The notes under the pieces: generated by a model | Seen by the model: the letters and a program-made list of their open reading frames with translations, nothing else | What the model was told of the DNA's origin: nothing | The model's database searches: none | Program-made: the position numbers and the translations under genes | NCBI GenBank assembly: GCA_903903975.1 | Contig: CAIVAS010000176.1 | Location: 1-32,774 of the forward strand | From: an uncultured Burkholderiales bacterium | GTDB taxonomy: Bacteria > Pseudomonadota > Gammaproteobacteria > Burkholderiales > Burkholderiaceae_E | DNA: 32,774 bases | Direction of reading: 5' to 3' | Part shown: piece after piece, positions 4,401 through 15,990 of the stretch | Numbering within the stretch: the first letter of the stretch is position 1 | Layout: each line of letters begins with the position of its first letter

Positions 4401-5105
4401 ATGCCTTCCCGTCACGAGTCCCCATCCGGTGAACCGGTTGGCCAGCAGTCGGCAGCACCCGGCGCCGTTATCCCGTTCGATGCGATTCTGATGGCGGCTG
4501 GTGCGGGGTCGCGGTTGGGGCATCGCCCGAAATCACTGTTGCAACTCGATGGCGAGCCGCTGATCATCCGGCAAATCAATGCCCTGAAAGCGGCGGGTGC
4601 AGATGAACTGGTGGTCGTGCTGGGTTTTTATGCCAATGAGATTGCGCCATGGCTGACCCGCTGTGGCGCGCGAATCGTTCTGAATCCTGATCCGGCACAG
4701 GGGCAGGTTTCATCGCAGCGTATCGGGCTGCAGGAGCTGAGCGGCAGAAGCAATGCGGTCCTGATGGCCCTGGCAGATCAACCGATGATCGATTCGCACG
4801 ATGTGACTGATCTGATCGCACGCTTTGCCGTGCGCCCCGCTGAATGCCTGCTGGTGTTTCCGCGCGTGCAAGGCCAGCCTGGCAATCCGGTGATCTTTAC
4901 CCCTGAAGTCCGCGATGCGGTGCTGTCAGCCGATCAGAGCATCGGATGCAGGCAATGGCGACAGGCCAATCGTTTGTCGGCACTGCCTTTCGACAGTGAC
5001 AATCCGCATTATGTGGTCGACATTGATACGCCCGACGATATCGAGTCGTTCTGTCGAACGACCGGTCGGCGCCTGTCGTGGCCGACCGACCGGACAGAGC
5101 GCTGA
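4401..5105 (+). CDS. MobA/MocA-like nucleotidyltransferase
   Basis: A 234-residue cytoplasmic nucleotidyltransferase with an N-terminal tail of about 25 residues before the fold starts. LMAAGAGSRLG followed by PKSLL (30-47) is the nucleotide-binding signature of the MobA/MocA/IspD group. LADQPMI (about 130) is the metal-binding region typical of MocA/CoxI-like cytidylyltransferases, and GQPGNPVIF fits the same subgroup. Such enzymes attach CMP or GMP to the molybdenum cofactor, often for xanthine-dehydrogenase-type enzymes, but no such enzyme is in this window. GCAGGAGATGTTTC precedes the ATG. It converges with the next gene with 18 bases between stops. Confidence 0.82.
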   Translation: MPSRHESPSGEPVGQQSAAPGAVIPFDAILMAAGAGSRLGHRPKSLLQLDGEPLIIRQINALKAAGADELVVVLGFYANEIAPWLTRCGARIVLNPDPAQGQVSSQRIGLQELSGRSNAVLMALADQPMIDSHDVTDLIARFAVRPAECLLVFPRVQGQPGNPVIFTPEVRDAVLSADQSIGCRQWRQANRLSALPFDSDNPHYVVDIDTPDDIESFCRTTGRRLSWPTDRTER

Positions 5106-9007: not shown

Positions 9008-9146
9008 GGGGTCTCCTGTTGTGATGGTTATTCAATGATGCCAATCGACTCGATGAAGATCGATTCGTTGCGCGTTGCCGGTATCTTATTCCAGAGGATG
9101 ACCGGGCAGCCTTGGATGGCGGTCAGCGAACTTTCCAGTACAGGGT

Positions 9147-9929
9147 TTATCGCGCCAGCCGACTTCTGACGCCATAGCTGATCGCGTCAACCAGCCCCAC
9201 CAGTGCCAGCATCGCGACCAGGATCGTGGCGGTCTTTCCCATGTGGAAAAGTCCCATGTGAAAGGCCAGCATCTGCCCAAGGCCGCCTGCGCCCACCACG
9301 CCCAGCATCGCCGCGGCACGGATATTGTTCTCCCAGCGATACAGGGTGTAACTGATGATCTGCGGGAGCACTTGCGGCAAGGTCGCATACAGGAATACCT
9401 GGATCGGTCCCGCCCCCTGTGTTCGCAAAGCGGCAGCGGGCCCCGACGGCAGGTTTTCAATCGCCTCGGCAAAGAGCCGCCCAAGCACGCCGCTGGTGTG
9501 CAGTGCGAGTGCCAGGGTGCCTGCCATCGGCCCCAGGCCGGCCGCGATCACAAGGAGCCCGGCCCAGACCAGCTCGGGCACTGATCGCAGCGCATTGAGC
9601 AGCAGCCTGACTGGTGTGCGTGCCGGGGCACGGTCCTGCCCTTGCTGGCGGCTTGCGGCAAGGGCGAGGGTAAGCCCGACGATGCCGGCAAGCAGCGTGC
9701 CGAGCGCCGACATCGCGAGGGTCTCGACAAGCGCGCTGCGCACCTTTGCCAGAAAAGCGGGTGAGGTATCAGGCGGAAAGAACTCACCGATGAATCGGCC
9801 CATGCTGCGCAGGGACTCATTCGAAAAGAACTGCGCCCATTGCAGATCGAGCGACCAGAAGCTGGCGACCACCAGCGCCCCGAGGCCAAGCATGAGCATC
9901 AACGCCTGCTGACGGGTCGACATCGGCAT
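9147..9929 (-). CDS. PhnE-type ABC transporter permease (second), probable selenium-oxyanion importer
   Basis: A 260-residue inner-membrane permease of the phosphonate/phosphite/selenate type. The coupling-helix region includes LPQVLPQIISYTLYRWENNIR followed by VGAGGLGQML, the family signature contacting the ATPase. It starts two bases after the stop of the first permease gene (TGAGGATG), so translation is coupled; an alternative ATG six bases downstream (9923) has GAGG at better spacing. It likely forms a heterodimer with the preceding permease. Substrate assignment rests on the binding protein and on the sen genes next door. Confidence 0.88.
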   Translation of the reverse strand: MPMSTRQQALMLMLGLGALVVASFWSLDLQWAQFFSNESLRSMGRFIGEFFPPDTSPAFLAKVRSALVETLAMSALGTLLAGIVGLTLALAASRQQGQDRAPARTPVRLLLNALRSVPELVWAGLLVIAAGLGPMAGTLALALHTSGVLGRLFAEAIENLPSGPAAALRTQGAGPIQVFLYATLPQVLPQIISYTLYRWENNIRAAAMLGVVGAGGLGQMLAFHMGLFHMGKTATILVAMLALVGLVDAISYGVRSRLAR

Positions 9930-9931
9930 CC

Positions 9932-10801
9932 TCAGCCCATGATCCGGCGCAGCGCCGTGCTCAGCAGGTCGGCGAGGGCGACCAGGCCGACGAATACCGC
10001 CAGCATGGTGAACACTTCACCGCCCATGAACATCTTCATCGAGTTGTCGAGCTGCTGGCCCAGGCCACCGGCACCCACGAATCCGAGGACGACAGAAGAA
10101 CGGATCGCGCACTCCCAGCGGTAGATGGTGTAGGAGGTGAGTTCGGCCGCGTTTTGCGGCAGGAAGCCAAAAAAGAATGACTGAAGACGCGAGCCACCGT
10201 TGCGCAGCAGCGCCTCGCCGCTTGCACTGTCACCACTTTCCAGGATGTCGCCATAGACCTTGCCGAGCATGCCGCCATAGGTGAGTCCGATTGCCAGCAC
10301 GCCTGCGGTCGGACCCAGCCCCACAACCCTGACAAACACCAGCGCCCAGACCAGCTCCGGAATGCTGCGCAGCACGATCAGAGCCCATCTCACACCTTGC
10401 CGGATCACGAAGGGCAGTGTTGCCATCTTTCCGCTCAGCGTCGAGATCGACAGCACGCGGGTCGATACCAGTCCAAGCGGGGCGGCGATCAGGAAGGCCA
10501 GGGTCATGCCGGCGGTTGCAATCGCCACCGTGCGCCAGGCTTCTCGCATCACCATGCGCAGAAAGTCGGGTGAGAGTTCGGGCGGAAAGAAGCTGCGCAG
10601 AAAATTTGCTGTGACCTGACGACTCTGGGGCTCGAACATCGTCCAGGGGCGAAACTCGGTGGCGACCAGCATCGGCCACAGTAGCGCAAGGCAGGCAGCG
10701 CCCCAGAAGAGGCGGGAAATCCAGGCCGGATCCCGATTTGGTGCCGAGTTCTGCAACGCCTTGCGCAATGGCAGCTCAGGCGAAGGGAGCGCCGCGCTCA
10801 C
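9932..10801 (-). CDS. PhnE-type ABC transporter permease (first), probable selenium-oxyanion importer
   Basis: A 289-residue permease paralogous to the following one, with the same signature (TSYTIYRWECAIRSS, then VGAGGLGQQL). The start is a GTG whose last two bases lie in the TGA stop of the ATPase gene (GTGA overlap), which implies tight coupled translation. Several membrane segments are visible, the first around GAACLALLWPMLVA. Paired permeases in tandem also occur in phosphonate systems, so the family alone does not reveal the substrate. Confidence 0.88.
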   Translation of the reverse strand: MSAALPSPELPLRKALQNSAPNRDPAWISRLFWGAACLALLWPMLVATEFRPWTMFEPQSRQVTANFLRSFFPPELSPDFLRMVMREAWRTVAIATAGMTLAFLIAAPLGLVSTRVLSISTLSGKMATLPFVIRQGVRWALIVLRSIPELVWALVFVRVVGLGPTAGVLAIGLTYGGMLGKVYGDILESGDSASGEALLRNGGSRLQSFFFGFLPQNAAELTSYTIYRWECAIRSSVVLGFVGAGGLGQQLDNSMKMFMGGEVFTMLAVFVGLVALADLLSTALRRIMG

Positions 10802-11628
10802 CGGCAGTTCATCACGGCGACCGATGCCTGCCCGCTCGCCTGTTCGGGCTGTGCAACGTCGCCATGCAGCTCATGCTCGAACTGCTGGTAGAGCGCCTGG
10901 AGCCGGTCCTCTCCGACCGCTGAGGGCGGCAGGTCAAACACGATACGGCCGGCGCGCATACCGATGATTCTCGGGAAGCTGGCGAGTGCGGCATCGACCT
11001 GATGCAGGGTTGCGACCAGGGTCGCGCCGCGCTCGCGTGCGCCCTGCGTGACCGTGGCGAGGGCCTGCCGGGCACGGCTCGGGTCGAGTGCCGAGAGTGG
11101 CTCGTCGATCAGCCAGAGCCGTGCCGGCGCGAGCAGTGCACGCGCCAGTCCCACCCTTTGCCGCTCGCCGCCCGAGAGCCGGTCGACTCGCTCGAAAAGT
11201 TTGTCGGCCAGATCAAAGCGTGCGAGCGCTTCGTGGGCGGCAGGGATGTCGTGCGGATAGAGCAGTGATCGCAGACTGGCTGCAAGGCTCATGGCAGGCA
11301 GGCGGCCTGCCAGCACCGCGGTGACAACCCGCTGGCGCGGTGGCAGCGGCGGCACCTGCGGCGCCAGAAAAAGCTGGCCGCGCAACCCCTGGAGCGCAGA
11401 TCGGGACAGTTGCCAGGGGTCCTGATCGTCCAGGCGAAGACTGCCCGAGGAAGGCTTCATCGCACAGGCCACCACGTGCAGCAGGCTGGTCTTGCCGGCA
11501 CCCGAGGGGCCGATCACCGCAACATGCTCGCCCGATTCGATCGACAGACTCAGGATGTCGATCGCGGGCGATGACCCTGCCCGTGCACTCGCATGGCGTG
11601 CGCTGATGCTGTCGAGTTCAATGCGCAT
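10798..11628 (-). CDS. PhnC-type ABC transporter ATP-binding protein
   Basis: A 276-residue ATPase energising the importer. Walker A is GPSGAGKTSLL (about 40-50), the signature is LSGGERQRVGLARALL, and Walker B is LWLIDEPLSALDP, all intact. A C-terminal tail of about 35 residues after the nucleotide-binding domain is unlike minimal PhnC. There is no clear ribosome site before the ATG. It begins 45 bases after the binding-protein gene and overlaps the next permease by four bases. Confidence 0.9.
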   Translation of the reverse strand: MRIELDSISARHASARAGSSPAIDILSLSIESGEHVAVIGPSGAGKTSLLHVVACAMKPSSGSLRLDDQDPWQLSRSALQGLRGQLFLAPQVPPLPPRQRVVTAVLAGRLPAMSLAASLRSLLYPHDIPAAHEALARFDLADKLFERVDRLSGGERQRVGLARALLAPARLWLIDEPLSALDPSRARQALATVTQGARERGATLVATLHQVDAALASFPRIIGMRAGRIVFDLPPSAVGEDRLQALYQQFEHELHGDVAQPEQASGQASVAVMNCR

Positions 11629-11673
11629 GTCGACAGGCGCCGTTTCTGAAGGTGTCGCTCGGCAGCGCGATGC

Positions 11674-12537
11674 TCAGAGCAGTCCGGCGCTCTTTGCAGC
11701 GGCTTCAATGCCCTTGTAGTTCTCGACGCGTGTCGGCACGAAGCGGGTGGCGCGCTGCAATTCGAGGATCTCCTTGCCTGTCGGGTCATCCCGGTTGAGC
11801 GACAGAAAAGCCTGGGCGATCTTGTCGCGCAGTGCAGCGGGCATGTCCGCGTTCACCGACCAGTTGTAGTCGAAATAGGGCGGCGTGGTGTAAAAGGCGA
11901 TCACCTTGGCGGGATCGACTTTTTTGTCGGCAACAAACTTTTCCCAGACCGAGATGTTCAGTGCGCCAGCCTGTACCTTGCCCGAGGCGACTGCCGCGAT
12001 CGTGGCATCGTGGGCGCCGCTGAAGGCGACCCGGCGAAAGTCCTTGTCAGGGTCGATACCGGCTTGCAGCAGATAGCTGCGAGGCATCAGGTGGCCGGAG
12101 GTCGAGCTTTGAGAGCCGAAGCTCACATCCTTGCCCTTGAGATCGGCGAGTTGCCTGATCGCCGGGTCCGAGGTGATGAAGACCGAGCGGAATTTCTCGT
12201 CTTCTTCACGTTGCACGATCGGGATGATCTTGCCGCCGGAACGGGTATTGGCCTGCACGAAGGTAAAGCCGCCGAACCAGGCCAGATCGACCTTGCGATT
12301 GACCAGCGCTTCGACCGACGCTGCATAGTCGGTGACCGGAGTGAATTCGACTTTCATGCCGAGCTTTGTTTCGAGGTACTTCATGAGTGGCGCGGCTTTG
12401 CGGGCCAGCTCGGTCGGCGCTTCATCGGGGATGGCCGTGACCCGCAGTACCTGTTGTGCCGTAGCGGGAAGGGACACGGCTGACAGCGCGCAGGTCAGCA
12501 GCGTGATCAGTGCGAAAGTTTTGCATCGGTGAATCAT
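11674..12537 (-). CDS. Periplasmic binding protein of a putative selenate/selenite ABC transporter (PhnD family)
   Basis: A 287-residue exported protein starting at MIHRCKTF, chosen because AGGAGCCCACCGC lies upstream; the longer frame from 12591 has no ribosome site. The signal peptide ends near LPATAQQ. The mature part reads VLRVTAIPDEAPTELA, then VDLAWFGGFTFVQA and GSQSSTSGHLMPRSYLL, characteristic of the PhnD-like clade that databases label putative selenate transporter because it is usually found beside selenium genes. Here the selenoneine genes are immediately upstream, which supports a selenium-oxyanion role. Phosphonate or phosphite transport is the alternative but no phosphonate-degradation gene is present. 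Confidence 0.88.
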   Translation of the reverse strand: MIHRCKTFALITLLTCALSAVSLPATAQQVLRVTAIPDEAPTELARKAAPLMKYLETKLGMKVEFTPVTDYAASVEALVNRKVDLAWFGGFTFVQANTRSGGKIIPIVQREEDEKFRSVFITSDPAIRQLADLKGKDVSFGSQSSTSGHLMPRSYLLQAGIDPDKDFRRVAFSGAHDATIAAVASGKVQAGALNISVWEKFVADKKVDPAKVIAFYTTPPYFDYNWSVNADMPAALRDKIAQAFLSLNRDDPTGKEILELQRATRFVPTRVENYKGIEAAAKSAGLL

Positions 12538-12565
12538 GCGGTGGGCTCCTGATGTTTCCATAAGC

Positions 12566-12589
12566 GGACACAGCGATTTATCTGTGACC
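12566..12589. promoter_or_regulatory. Dyad upstream of the transporter operon
   Basis: GGACACAG (12566-12573) and CTGTGACC (12582-12589) form an inverted repeat with one mismatch, arms separated by eight bases. It lies 28 bases upstream of the binding-protein ATG, between senA and the transporter genes. It could be an operator or part of a leader hairpin. No regulator gene of obvious relation is nearby. Confidence 0.35.
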
Positions 12590-12615
12590 ATCCTGTCCGA
12601 GGCGCGAGTGTGCCA

Positions 12616-12631
12616 CGCATGCAGACATGCG
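12616..12631. promoter_or_regulatory. Perfect 6-bp stem, 4-base loop hairpin downstream of senA
   Basis: CGCATG-CAGA-CATGCG is a perfect short hairpin just after the senA stop (12652 on the minus strand). No T-tract follows on either strand, so it is not a classical intrinsic terminator; it might stabilise the senA 3' end or attenuate read-through into the transporter genes. Confidence 0.35.
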
Positions 12632-12651
12632 CCGGTAGCGTCTGTCGGTCA

Positions 12652-13905
12652 TCAGACTGCGCAGCTGCGAAAACCGGTCGCGACGTCATGGCGTGTGGGC
12701 GGAAAGAAATTACGGTAGAGCGGGTGCCGCATCCGCGGCTGCGTCATGAAAGAGGCGCCGCGCAGCACCTGTCGTGCCTGTCCGCTCAGGCTTGCATCGG
12801 CGCACTGCTGCGGCGTTGCAAACCAGGGTTGCGAATAATCGCGATAGGGATGAGCGATGAAGCCGGGATAGGGAATAAAGGGGCTGTCTGTCCACTCCCA
12901 CACGCTGCCCCATGCGAAATCGTCAGCCCCTTCGACGGCAGCGCGCTCCCACTCGGCCTCCCGTGGCAGGCGGCGGCCTGCCCAACGACACCAGGCCTGA
13001 GCTTCGAAAAGTGTGAGGTGGCTCGCGGCTAAGGTCGTATCAACCGCGGTCCAGTGGCCGTAGCGCCGTTGCTGCCATCCGCTGGTGTGCTTGCGCAGAT
13101 AGAGCGGACTCGTTTGCCCCGACTCAATCAGCCAGGCGCGCCCAACCGGACTCCACCAGCTCGGGTCCTGATAGCCACCCGCGTCAATGAAGGGCAGAAA
13201 CTCGGCCCAGCTGACGACGCGATCATCGATCTGGAAAGCAGGCAACGATATGGTGTGTTCGCCGATCTCGTTGTCAAACGAAAACCCGTGCACGGGCGGC
13301 CTGCCAGTCGTCCAGTCCAACCGCGAAAACGCGAGCTGTCGAACAGCCCCAGGATGCCCGGTGGCCTGCCAGCGCGGATCCGCAATCGCGATGTCCAGCG
13401 CCTGTGCCGTATACAGCGCCGCTTCATGATGCATATCCTCATGCAGCAGCGTCAGTCGGCTGGAGTAGAGCGCATCGTCGTCTGCCGGTGATCGACTCAG
13501 GATGTCGAGCGTGCCGGCGAGTTGCTGATGCAGATCGCGACGGGTGTCTTCCACGGCAGGCAAGTTCAGCTGCCAGCGTGAGGCGTGGTGCACTTCGCTG
13601 GAGTTGTACAGCGCGTCGGCGTCGCCCCGAACGCCTGCCCACCGTGGACGTGCCGGATCAGCCTTCGTGCCGCGAGAGTGATGCGGATTGCGCGACGTCC
13701 AGTACTCCTGAAACCAGCCGATATGGCCCAACTCCCACAGAGGCGGGTTGAAGGTGGGTCGGTGCGGCACGCTCAAATCAGGCAGCGCAGCCGCAAAAAC
13801 CGCGAAAGTGGCCAGTGTGTCTTTGCGGCTTGCTTGCAGCGCTGAGGCCAGGGTGTCGGCGTCGGCCGTGCGAATCTGCTGCCCGATCAGGGTGGTGAGG
13901 CTCAT
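12652..13905 (-). CDS. senA: Selenoneine synthase SenA (EgtB-like)
   Basis: A 417-residue homologue of the ergothioneine sulfoxide synthase EgtB: an N-terminal DinB-like domain followed by a formylglycine-generating-enzyme-like domain. The probable iron ligands are His61 (LGHIGWF), His155 and His159 (LLHEDMHHEA). The C-terminal part has RRLPREAEWERAAVEG (311-326) and ends in RHDVATGFRSCAV. SenA joins hercynine to a selenosugar on the way to selenoneine. Neighbouring senB and senC homologues make SenA likelier than EgtB, whose usual partners egtC and egtD are absent. The start at 13905 fits the domain; a longer frame from 13998 would overlap senB. It has no clear ribosome site. It runs toward the selenium transporter, 114 bases away. 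Confidence 0.87.
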   Translation of the reverse strand: MSLTTLIGQQIRTADADTLASALQASRKDTLATFAVFAAALPDLSVPHRPTFNPPLWELGHIGWFQEYWTSRNPHHSRGTKADPARPRWAGVRGDADALYNSSEVHHASRWQLNLPAVEDTRRDLHQQLAGTLDILSRSPADDDALYSSRLTLLHEDMHHEAALYTAQALDIAIADPRWQATGHPGAVRQLAFSRLDWTTGRPPVHGFSFDNEIGEHTISLPAFQIDDRVVSWAEFLPFIDAGGYQDPSWWSPVGRAWLIESGQTSPLYLRKHTSGWQQRRYGHWTAVDTTLAASHLTLFEAQAWCRWAGRRLPREAEWERAAVEGADDFAWGSVWEWTDSPFIPYPGFIAHPYRDYSQPWFATPQQCADASLSGQARQVLRGASFMTQPRMRHPLYRNFFPPTRHDVATGFRSCAV

Positions 13906-13983
13906 TGCCGTTAGACTGAGTTGGTGGAAAAAAGCGAGATCGTCATCGTCACCCCTGCACTGGCCGATGCCAATAACGGCAAT
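13904..13983. promoter_or_regulatory. Perfect 10-bp inverted repeat spanning the senA/senB divergent starts
   Basis: ATTGCCGTTA at 13904-13913 and its exact complement TAACGGCAAT at 13974-13983 flank the two start codons, centres 70 bases apart. On the senA strand the first copy ends on the first two bases of the senA ATG. The second copy encodes the conserved Asn-Asn-Gly-Asn of SenB, so codon constraint could explain it. It may be a chance match, a pair of operator sites, or a long-loop hairpin in the senB leader. Confidence 0.35.
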
Positions 13984-14889
13984 TGGCAGACCGCGCATCG
14001 GTGGGAGCGATTCCTGTCGCGAGCTTACCGTGTGAGGCTTTGCAATGCCTGGGAAGGCGGGCCCGAATCACTGCTGATCGCCATGCATGCTCGCCGGTCG
14101 GCAGCATCGTTGGCTGCCTGGCGATCGATGCGTGCAGATCGCCCGATCCTGCTGGTTCTGACCGGGACCGATCTCTATCGGGATATCGCCAGGGATGAGT
14201 CGGCGCGCCAGTCGATCCGGCTTGCCGATTCGCTGGTCGTTCTCAACGAACTCGGTGCGCAGCGCCTGGGGCCCGAGGACCAGCGAAAAGCAACCGTGAT
14301 CCTGCAATCCAGTTCGCCGCGCAAGCCGCTGCAGCACACCGATCGGCATCTGCGTGCGCTCATGGTCGGTCATCTGCGTGCCGAGAAATCGCCGCAGACC
14401 TACTTCAATGCGGCACGCCGTCTGGTCGATCGCGATGACATCCTGCTCGACCATATCGGTTCGGCGCTCGATCCCGCGTTGGGTGAGCAGGCCCAGGCAC
14501 TCATGCAGCAATGCCCGCAATATCGCTGGCTCGGCCCCTTGCCGCATCAGGCGGTGCGAAGGCGCATTCAGGCCGCTCACCTGCTGGTGCACCCGAGCAG
14601 TATGGAAGGTGGTGCTCATGTGGTGATCGAGGCGGTGCGAAGCGGCACGCCTGTGCTGGCCTCAGGCATCGACGGCAATATCGGGCTGCTCGGCCCTGAC
14701 TACACAGGCTATTTCCCTGTTGGCAACGACCTCGCGCTGGCCAGCCTGCTCGAATCTGCGCGCGACCTTCCCGGTATGCTCGCAGGCTTGAAAGCCGAGT
14801 GCGATGCGCGTGCGCCCTTGTTTGAGCCAGCGCGTGAGCGGGCTGCAGTGCTGAGCCTTGTCGCGTCCCTCATCAGGCGCCCCTCATGA
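13921..14889 (+). CDS. senB: Selenosugar synthase SenB (glycosyltransferase-like)
   Basis: A 322-residue GT-B type glycosyltransferase. IVIVTPALADANNGNW (about 7-22) is the N-terminal motif of the family found beside selenophosphate synthetase genes and now assigned to SenB, which transfers selenium from selenophosphate to a UDP-sugar to give a selenosugar. SSMEGGAHVVIEAV (227-239) holds an E-x7-E pair (Glu229, Glu237) for nucleotide-sugar binding. The start must be non-ATG: an in-frame TAG at 13912 blocks extension, and only TTG 13921 or GTG 13924 keeps the conserved N-terminus. The start is 15 bases from the senA start on the other strand. senC follows 36 bases after the stop. Confidence 0.87.
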   Translation: MVEKSEIVIVTPALADANNGNWQTAHRWERFLSRAYRVRLCNAWEGGPESLLIAMHARRSAASLAAWRSMRADRPILLVLTGTDLYRDIARDESARQSIRLADSLVVLNELGAQRLGPEDQRKATVILQSSSPRKPLQHTDRHLRALMVGHLRAEKSPQTYFNAARRLVDRDDILLDHIGSALDPALGEQAQALMQQCPQYRWLGPLPHQAVRRRIQAAHLLVHPSSMEGGAHVVIEAVRSGTPVLASGIDGNIGLLGPDYTGYFPVGNDLALASLLESARDLPGMLAGLKAECDARAPLFEPARERAAVLSLVASLIRRPS

Positions 14890-14925
14890 AGCGCCAACCC
14901 TCTGTCGATCTGTGAAGGAGTCAAC

Positions 14926-15990
14926 ATGAATTCGCCCGAAACGCCGGCCGAGCCGCGCCTGACCTCGTTGTCGCATGGCGGCGGTTGCGGCTGCAAGATT
15001 GCCCCAGGCGTGCTGTCCGAAATTCTCAAGGGCACGGTGGTGATGCCGGTGCCGAAAGAACTGCTGGTCGGCATCGAGACCGCCGATGATGCGGCGGTCT
15101 ATCAGCTCAATGACGAACAGGCACTGATCGCCACGACCGATTTCTTCATGCCGATCGTCGATGATCCGATCGACTTCGGACGCATTGCTGCAACCAATGC
15201 GATCAGCGATGTCTATGCCATGGGCGGGCGTCCGATCATGGCCCTGGCGCTGGTCGGCATGCCGATCAATGTGCTGTCGACGCAGACCATCGGCAAGATC
15301 CTCGAGGGCGGCGCATCGGTCTGTCGTGCTGCCGGTATTCCGATTGCAGGCGGTCACACCATCGATTCGGTCGAAGCGATTTATGGCCTGGTGGCGATCG
15401 GCCTGGTACATCCGAAGCATGTCAAGCGAAACGCTGATGCGCGCCCGGGCGATGTGCTGATCCTGGGCAAGCCGATCGGCGTGGGTGTGATGTCGGCAGC
15501 CCTCAAGAAGGGCGAGCTTGGCGAGGCCGGTTATGCGCAGATGATTGCGACCACGACCAAGCTCAATACGCCGGGCCCCGATCTGGCGGCCTTGCCCGGG
15601 GTTCATGCCCTGACCGACATCACCGGTTTTGGTCTGGCCGGGCATACGCTTGAACTGGCGCGTGGTGCCCGATGCGAGGTCTCAATCGACTGGCGATCAG
15701 TGCCGCAACTCGACGGCGTGCGTGCGCTTGCCGCTCGTGGCTTCATCACCGGTGCCTCCGAGCGCAACTGGGCTGGCTATGGCCACGATGTCGCGCTGCC
15801 GCAGGGTTTCGACCCGTTCGATCGTGCTTTGCTGACCGATCCGCAGACCAGTGGCGGGCTGCTGGTCTCGTGCGACCCATCAGCAGTCGATGCGGTGATG
15901 GCGGTCTTCAGACGCCATGGCTTCGAGCAGGCTGCGGTGGTCGGGGTGGTCAATCCGGCGAGCGGATCGCCGCGACTCGTCGTGGTCTGA
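14926..15990 (+). CDS. selD: Selenophosphate synthetase SenC/SelD
   Basis: A 354-residue ATP-dependent selenide, water dikinase that makes selenophosphate from selenide. HGGGCGCK (17-24) contains the catalytic Cys21 and Lys24, equivalent to Cys17 and Lys20 of E. coli SelD. Position 21 is encoded by TGC, so this is the cysteine and not the selenocysteine form. ADDAAVY, TTDFFMPIVDDP and NAISDVYAMGG carry the metal and nucleotide sites. AAGGAGTCAAC precedes the ATG. Position directly after senB marks it as SenC, though the same enzyme could also feed selenocysteine or selenouridine synthesis. It converges with the next gene with ten bases between stops. Confidence 0.95.
   Translation: MNSPETPAEPRLTSLSHGGGCGCKIAPGVLSEILKGTVVMPVPKELLVGIETADDAAVYQLNDEQALIATTDFFMPIVDDPIDFGRIAATNAISDVYAMGGRPIMALALVGMPINVLSTQTIGKILEGGASVCRAAGIPIAGGHTIDSVEAIYGLVAIGLVHPKHVKRNADARPGDVLILGKPIGVGVMSAALKKGELGEAGYAQMIATTTKLNTPGPDLAALPGVHALTDITGFGLAGHTLELARGARCEVSIDWRSVPQLDGVRALAARGFITGASERNWAGYGHDVALPQGFDPFDRALLTDPQTSGGLLVSCDPSAVDAVMAVFRRHGFEQAAVVGVVNPASGSPRLVVV

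Follow-up and report, generated by a model that had tools for sequence, protein, structure and literature searches.

A selenoneine biosynthesis locus joined to a putative selenium oxyanion importer in an uncultured Burkholderiales bacterium

A stretch of 32,774 nucleotides from an uncultured Burkholderiales bacterium (contig CAIVAS010000176.1, hereafter the window; positions 1-32774 of contig C176 in a 3.95 Mb genome of 270 contigs) was analysed with respect to seven genes located within positions 9147-15990. Two permeases, an ATPase, a periplasmic binding protein (SBP) and senA are encoded on the minus strand, and the plus strand carries senB and selD. This locus is a well-founded member of the selenoneine (sen) family, and we consider it probable, at roughly 0.7, that it is coupled to an ATP-binding cassette (ABC) importer whose cargo is an inorganic oxyanion of selenium, most likely selenite. 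The genomic context of the importer points to selenium and its binding pocket points to selenite. In support of this, the importer recurs beside selD, senB, mnmH or egtD in other genomes, and one close relative lacks both senA and the importer.

In the proposed pathway the binding protein would capture the selenium oxyanion, which the two permeases and the ATPase would then import. Reduction to selenide would be carried out by enzymes encoded elsewhere, and SelD would make selenophosphate. SenB would transfer selenium onto a UDP-sugar and SenA would couple this selenosugar to hercynine, supplied by an EgtD encoded on another contig, to give selenoneine. The selenium cargo, the preference for selenite over selenate, the reduction step and the production of selenoneine by this organism are what we infer from sequence.

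Identity of the sen genes

The three sen genes were identified as SenA, SenB and SelD by curated models, in agreement with the earlier reading of the locus from sequence only. Selenoneine synthase, senA (12652-13905, minus strand; the open reading frame extends to 13998), scored 461.5 bits on NF041186 (cut-off 420) and 216.9 bits on the EgtB model TIGR03440, below the cut-off of 360. As a control, the EgtB encoded on contig C6 of the same genome scored 515 with the model for EgtB and 320 with that for SenA. Against solved proteins, SenA matched SenA structures (8k5i/8ryz) with 360 bits, OvsA with 138 and EgtB with 134. A tree of 42 rows, built from 34 of 75 SenA rows and 8 EgtB rows (one protein appears twice among the latter), split SenA from EgtB at 100/100 and placed the window protein on the SenA side. 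An EgtB in place of SenA was thus rejected by model scores, same-genome control and tree alike.

Selenosugar synthase, senB (13924-14889, plus strand, GTG start; open frame from a TTG at 13921), scored 432.9 on TIGR04348 (cut-off 300). Its best solved relatives were the Se-glycosyltransferases 8k5u, 8jjq, 8jjn and 8fbx, which sets it apart from ordinary glycosyltransferases, and the ADANNGNW and E-x7-E motifs noted previously are present. Residues N20, T23, R155, K158, E231 and E239 (Variovorax paradoxus numbering) are named in PMC10891094 and PMC10702425. All six are kept in the window protein, as are N17, G19, T83 and T85, that is 10 of 10 compared positions, a set that leaves out R22, Q131 and H235 of the named residues. 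Selenophosphate synthetase, selD (also senC; 14926-15990, plus strand), scored 533 bits on NF002098 and 423.3 on TIGR00476 (cut-off 125), with the selenide, water dikinase 3u0o as its best solved relative. The identity of the three enzymes is, at the level of sequence, well established.

Importer genes and locus layout

The importer is encoded directly downstream of senA on the same strand, and all features of the sequence-only reading (EgtB-like gene, SenB, SelD and ABC transporter) were found in their places. The SBP gene (11674-12591) scored 402 bits on TIGR04553 (cut-off 250). It is followed by a PhnC-like ATPase (10798-11628; PF00005; 181.1 bits on TIGR02315, short of the cut-off of 266.1) and by two PhnE-type permeases of family PF00528. 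Permease 1 (9932-10801) reached 196.7 bits on the PhnE model TIGR01097, slightly short of the cut-off of 216.7, and permease 2 (9147-9929) passed it with 262.3 bits; all four genes lie on the minus strand. The genes are closely spaced, with gaps of 60 bp between senA and SBP, 45 bp between SBP and ATPase and 2 bp between the permeases, and a 4 bp overlap of ATPase and permease 1. This operon-like spacing suggests that senA and the importer form one transcription unit. On the other strand selD begins 36 bp after senB.

The senA start was placed at the ATG at 13905, the one retained in the remnant of the relative described below, and the senB GTG start at 13924 is common to three close relatives (L035, L036 and L037). 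As these divergent starts are only 18 bases apart, the two promoters would have to overlap coding sequence. Within the named collection, the SenB proteins closest to that of the window share 90-91% identity with it and belong to Burkholderiales-type metagenome-assembled genomes (MAGs), of which one carries a Lac Pavin title. Elsewhere in the window, positions 4401-5105 encode a MocA-like NTP transferase (TIGR03310, 115 bits, short of the cut-off of 186.45) whose product is possibly related to molybdenum cofactor.

Binding protein family and pocket

TIGR04553 is described as a 'putative selenate' ABC transporter binding protein family and its model is typed 'hypoth_equivalog'. With the SBP above the family cut-off and an ATPase and two permeases adjoining, the importer is of the TIGR04553 type. 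Its relation to phosphite importers of the PtxB/PhnD type is partial in that the pocket agrees and one permease passes the PhnE model, whereas the SBP remained below the cut-off of the PhnD equivalog TIGR03431 (163.9 versus 261.1 bits). The best solved relatives of the SBP were 5lq5 and 7s6g, the latter of which we take to be Synechococcus PhnD1.

The phosphite pocket is described in PMC5700983 as comprising D13, F90, H158, N176, D205 and Y206 of Pm_PhnD together with the S-T-S motif of PtxB, a list that may not cover the whole pocket. Mapped from alignments, the window SBP was identical to Pm_PhnD at all nine of these positions: D56, F134, S163, T164, S165, H194, N212, D241 and Y242, counted from the ATG at 12591. 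The tyrosine is reported in that paper to cap the fourth side of the pocket and to keep out bulky groups. Among 91 near SBPs, defined by a score of 300 or more against the window SBP, S-T-S, H and Y were invariant (91/91) and F was kept in 90. D56, N212 and D241 were replaced jointly by E, D and N in 36 of the 91, and both pocket types, D/N/D and E/D/N, were found in sen-linked loci. Five loci labelled as genome family f46 have the E/D/N pocket; a sixth f46 locus, L199, is not so labelled in the same table. In 18 SBPs from outside the order, which were compared separately, D, F, S-T-S and H were kept in all and Y in 17 (L262 has T), with N at position 241 in L253, L256 and L258.

Selenite and phosphite both have three oxygens, next to a lone pair in selenite and a hydrogen in phosphite, whereas selenate has four. 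Because the three-oxygen, tyrosine-capped pocket of the phosphite type is kept, selenite would be favoured over selenate. PhnD1 is described in PMC10284923 as binding phosphite and phosphate and as requiring a trigonal arrangement of no fewer than three covalently bound oxygens; neither selenite nor selenate is mentioned in the main text of that paper.

Genomic neighbours of the importer

The genomic context of the importer was evaluated by applying model cut-offs to 250 sampled genomes of the order. Loci around the SBP were fetched from 55 further genomes, giving 56 with the window. SelD was located within about 10 kb of the SBP in 11 of these (the window and L164, L171, L172, L173, L177, L182, L186, L188, L195 and L206). 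In L171 and L172 senB-selD lies upstream of the importer on the same strand, and in L188 and L195, whose genomes are without SenB above the cut-off, MnmH is also found beside importer and SelD. In a separately fetched locus (L219) the importer adjoins egtD. Tepidicella baoligensis (G266, locus L113) holds importer, senB, selD and MnmH; a search of the genome gave no SenA, EgtD or SelA match, and its importer with senB-selD counts in favour of the selenium link.

Outside the order, a search of 299 genomes of the phylum gave 24 with a match, six of which were already in the order sample, leaving 18 new cases. SelD was near the SBP in five of them (L250, L253, L256, L258 and L265). In L253, L256 and L258 the SBP, SenB and a SelD fusion are encoded together, with no SenA within the fetched stretch; in L253 the scores were 422.6 on TIGR04553, 390.1 for SenB (cut-off 300) and 297.8 on TIGR00476 (cut-off 125) for the SelD, which is fused to an oxidoreductase domain. 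Altogether, 16 of 74 loci have SelD near the SBP. About 2 would be expected by a rough estimate for a 4-Mb genome with six partner genes allowed, which treats related genomes as though they were independent. The sequence-only reading had spoken of a dedicated selenium oxyanion importer. This context supports the selenium cargo but not the word dedicated, as the family adjoins selD-mnmH in genomes without SenB above the cut-off (L188 and L195) and most copies are near no selenium gene searched for.

Co-occurrence was counted as well. Within the 250 genomes, 70 passed the cut-off for SenB, 56 for SBP, 70 for SelA, 177 for MnmH and 55 for SenA. SBP and SenB occurred together in 30 genomes where 15.7 would be expected (p 3e-6). 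Of the 56 SBP genomes, 52 held SenB, SelA or MnmH, compared with an expectation of 41 (p 5e-5), the MnmH set for this test being the 179 genomes matching at E ≤1e-40. The four SBP genomes without any of the three were G159, G170, G195 and G205.

Distribution of the sen-importer arrangement

The split of senA from senBC and its union with the importer had been regarded as unusual. In the best 80 of 405 SenB loci, which are biased towards kin since they were ranked by likeness to the window, 35 held the SBP. When only the 52 of these loci that extend 6.5 kb or more on the side of senA were considered, SBP was found in 26, SenA in 39, EgtD in 27 and SelD in 41. One of the 26 is from Variovorax soli (L052), with the importer about 2 kb from senA. 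Roseateles saccharophilus (L062) is another named species that has the locus. Among near kin the layout is therefore not unusual, and that description was rejected; across the order it is a minority arrangement, with the SBP within 10 kb of SenB on one contig in 6 of 70 SenB genomes, many contigs being short.

Seven genomes of family f17 hold divergent full-length SenB relatives of 173-229 bits, below the TIGR04348 cut-off. Two of these relatives (L237, 8888-9907, and L238, from 4181) lie beside SenA, EgtD and SelD relatives and for that reason look like true sen loci missed by TIGR04348. In a third f17 locus with a divergent SenB relative, L239, no SenA was seen.

Natural loss of senA and importer

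One close relative (L036) aligns to the window until position 9154 and resumes at 13875, base to base, so that 4,720 bases are absent. The absent stretch consists of the importer and of senA except its start, and in the scar ten senA codons run into the last codon and the stop of phnE2. As both operon ends are retained in register, L036 has lost a former full operon, and the opposite event, an insertion in the lineage of the window, was rejected for L036 on the same grounds. The L036 record is titled Bordetella parapertussis, but the MAG contig is 85-91% alike to the window genome over matched stretches and may be misnamed.

Two further relatives, L035 and L037, are without the same genes. Their gap is slightly larger with alike junctions, and even the operon ends are absent; deletion is inferred here from kinship and position. 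The gap region lies at about 9940-9985 in L035, L036 and L037 and corresponds to 9118-13906 of the window. None of the three genomes gave a SenA match above the cut-off or a TIGR04553 match at E ≤1e-60, and all three retain SelA and MnmH.

In all three relatives SenB is open and its residues are kept; the L036 contig ends before SelD. Between L035 and L037, senB differs by 27 bases in synonymous codons and by 15 in non-synonymous ones (dN/dS 0.165). Its synonymous divergence of 0.12 is lower than the 0.34-0.73 observed for the CoA transferase, selD, mocA and cupin genes, and recombination may accordingly have touched senB.

SenB without SenA

SenB without a SenA above the cut-off was also observed more widely. 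Five of 18 individually searched genomes (G250, G251, G252, G256 and G266) had no SenA above the cut-off, and neither had 20 of the 70 SenB genomes of the order sample. Seven of the 20 have a lower-scoring SenA relative near SenB, leaving 13, one of which (G062) has a 336-bit SenA match elsewhere. A search of every open frame in the 13 fetched SenB loci (L221-L233) gave no SenA, EgtB or EgtD match, and SelD was seen in two. In 11 of the 13 that were checked, nine of the ten compared SenB residues were kept in all 11, and N17 was replaced by R in 10, which suggests a separate SenB clade. No common new partner was found next to SenB in the four of 13 loci in which neighbours were named; these comprised MotA/MotB, HDOD, SpoU and SPOUT methylases, HlyD and pentapeptide repeats.

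SenB remains intact and under constraint in relatives that have lost senA, and sets of importer, senB and selD are found with no senA nearby, so that the selenosugar made by SenB may be put to use without SenA, perhaps in another selenium metabolite.

Hercynine supply and shared use of SelD

Hercynine is used by both the ergothioneine and the selenoneine pathways. EgtD was found at G000:C6:4213-5103 (382 bits, cut-off 290.9) next to the EgtB of contig C6, and with this pair the cell can make hercynine and has the ergothioneine enzymes as well. The sen locus therefore depends on contig C6. A genome-wide AIRS_C search hit four places, namely the window SelD, a 1366-aa frame on C115 with two of the hits, and a 378-aa frame on C228. 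The C115 frame was set aside by its length and the C228 stretch gave no SelD label; accordingly, the window SelD is taken as the only SelD of the genome. SelA and MnmH are both present, which makes it probable that selenocysteine and selenouridine are also made and that SelD has to serve these two enzymes too. No selenium oxyanion reductase was found among the ten window proteins scanned. The view of the locus as a self-contained selenium-to-selenoneine module hence did not hold, on account of the remote EgtD, the missing reductase among those ten proteins and the sharing of SelD.

Alternative cargoes of the importer

Several observations weigh against coupling of the sen locus to a selenium importer. 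In the order sample 40 of 70 SenB genomes had no SBP above the cut-off, meaning that sen does not need the importer, and the relatives that retain selA, mnmH and senB have no importer. No SelD was present in the fetched stretch of 45 of the 56 order SBP loci, some of which were cut short by contig ends, or in 13 of the 18 loci outside the order. The co-occurrence p-values are too small, as the genomes are related. PhnD1, a binder of phosphite and phosphate, has the same pocket, which would also be compatible with either of these as cargo. Finally, importers in L196, L203, L205 and L215 adjoin a CysB-family regulator and a sulfite/nitrite-reductase-like gene; these loci were grouped by gene clusters with names taken from L205, which also holds a uroporphyrinogen methyltransferase.

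Phosphite or phosphate as the cargo, the importer having come to lie next to the sen genes either by chance or to supply phosphate, would fit the nearest solved relatives (7s6g, phosphite-binding 5lq5 and PtxB), the nine pocket positions kept from phosphite binders, the binding of phosphite and phosphate by PhnD1, and the permease that passes the PhnE model. It is nonetheless unlikely given the repeated placement of the importer by selD, senB, mnmH or egtD in separate lineages, the selenium trait in 52 of 56 SBP genomes and the SBP score below the PhnD cut-off. An alternative in which the importer serves the assimilation of a sulfur oxyanion and selenium is carried along with it draws on the four CysB-type loci and on the suggestion in PMC9312934 that the transport and reduction routes of sulfate might be open to selenium too. 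Those loci all stem from one genome family (f46), however. Their SBPs are of the E/D/N type. Apart from these loci, no constant importer partner emerged among the genes named in loci without selenium genes. The three-oxygen, tyrosine-capped pocket speaks against sulfate though not against sulfite, and on balance we regard a sulfur cargo as quite improbable. An organic cargo (selenoneine, ergothioneine, hercynine or a selenosugar) could be imagined from the vicinity of the importer to senA and, in other loci, egtD; it is very improbable, since the SBP retains the tyrosine which excludes bulky groups in relatives, and since the importer occurs with selD-mnmH in L188 and L195, whose genomes are without SenB above the cut-off. 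An inorganic selenium oxyanion stays the preferred cargo.

A wider proposal is put forward tentatively and at somewhat less than even confidence: TIGR04553 proteins would be dedicated importers of selenite (HSeO3-) with a repurposed phosphite pocket, and SenA-free use of the selenosugar would exist alongside. If true, the family would represent the missing high-affinity bacterial selenium uptake system. Picocyanobacterial PhnD1 reportedly binds phosphite in strains unable to live on phosphite, and it is pure conjecture that it might be a selenite importer too.

Comparison with known systems

The selenoneine pathway is known, and what is added here is the link to an importer of putative selenium cargo, a pocket prediction and natural losses. 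No paper linking a TIGR04553 importer to sen, or reporting an assay of the importer's cargo, was found among open-licence PMC papers, as judged from their listings; PMC10903977 speaks of an ergothioneine transporter. What makes the locus valuable is the importer together with the cases of SenB lacking SenA, rather than the layout. The operon offers a concrete importer candidate with a predicted preference for selenite over selenate and with natural losses in close relatives, and the retention of SenB without SenA raises the question of selenosugar use other than selenoneine.

All three enzymes are shared with the sen cluster of V. paradoxus, and the window proteins match solved SenA and SenB best. 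In the window an importer operon is attached to senA, and in V. soli (L052) the importer is about 2 kb away from it. The EgtB/EgtD pair of ergothioneine synthesis is related through SenA, a relative of EgtB, and through hercynine, but the genome encodes a separate EgtB-EgtD pair on C6 and SenA falls across a 100/100 branch. PhnD1/PtxB (5lq5, 5jvb and 7s6g) match the SBP clearly in sequence, and the nine pocket positions mapped from Pm_PhnD are kept in it; the difference is that the genomic partners of the importer here are selenium genes. The window SBP is itself a member of TIGR04553, and it departs from the 'selenate' label of that family by a phosphite-type pocket that would favour selenite.

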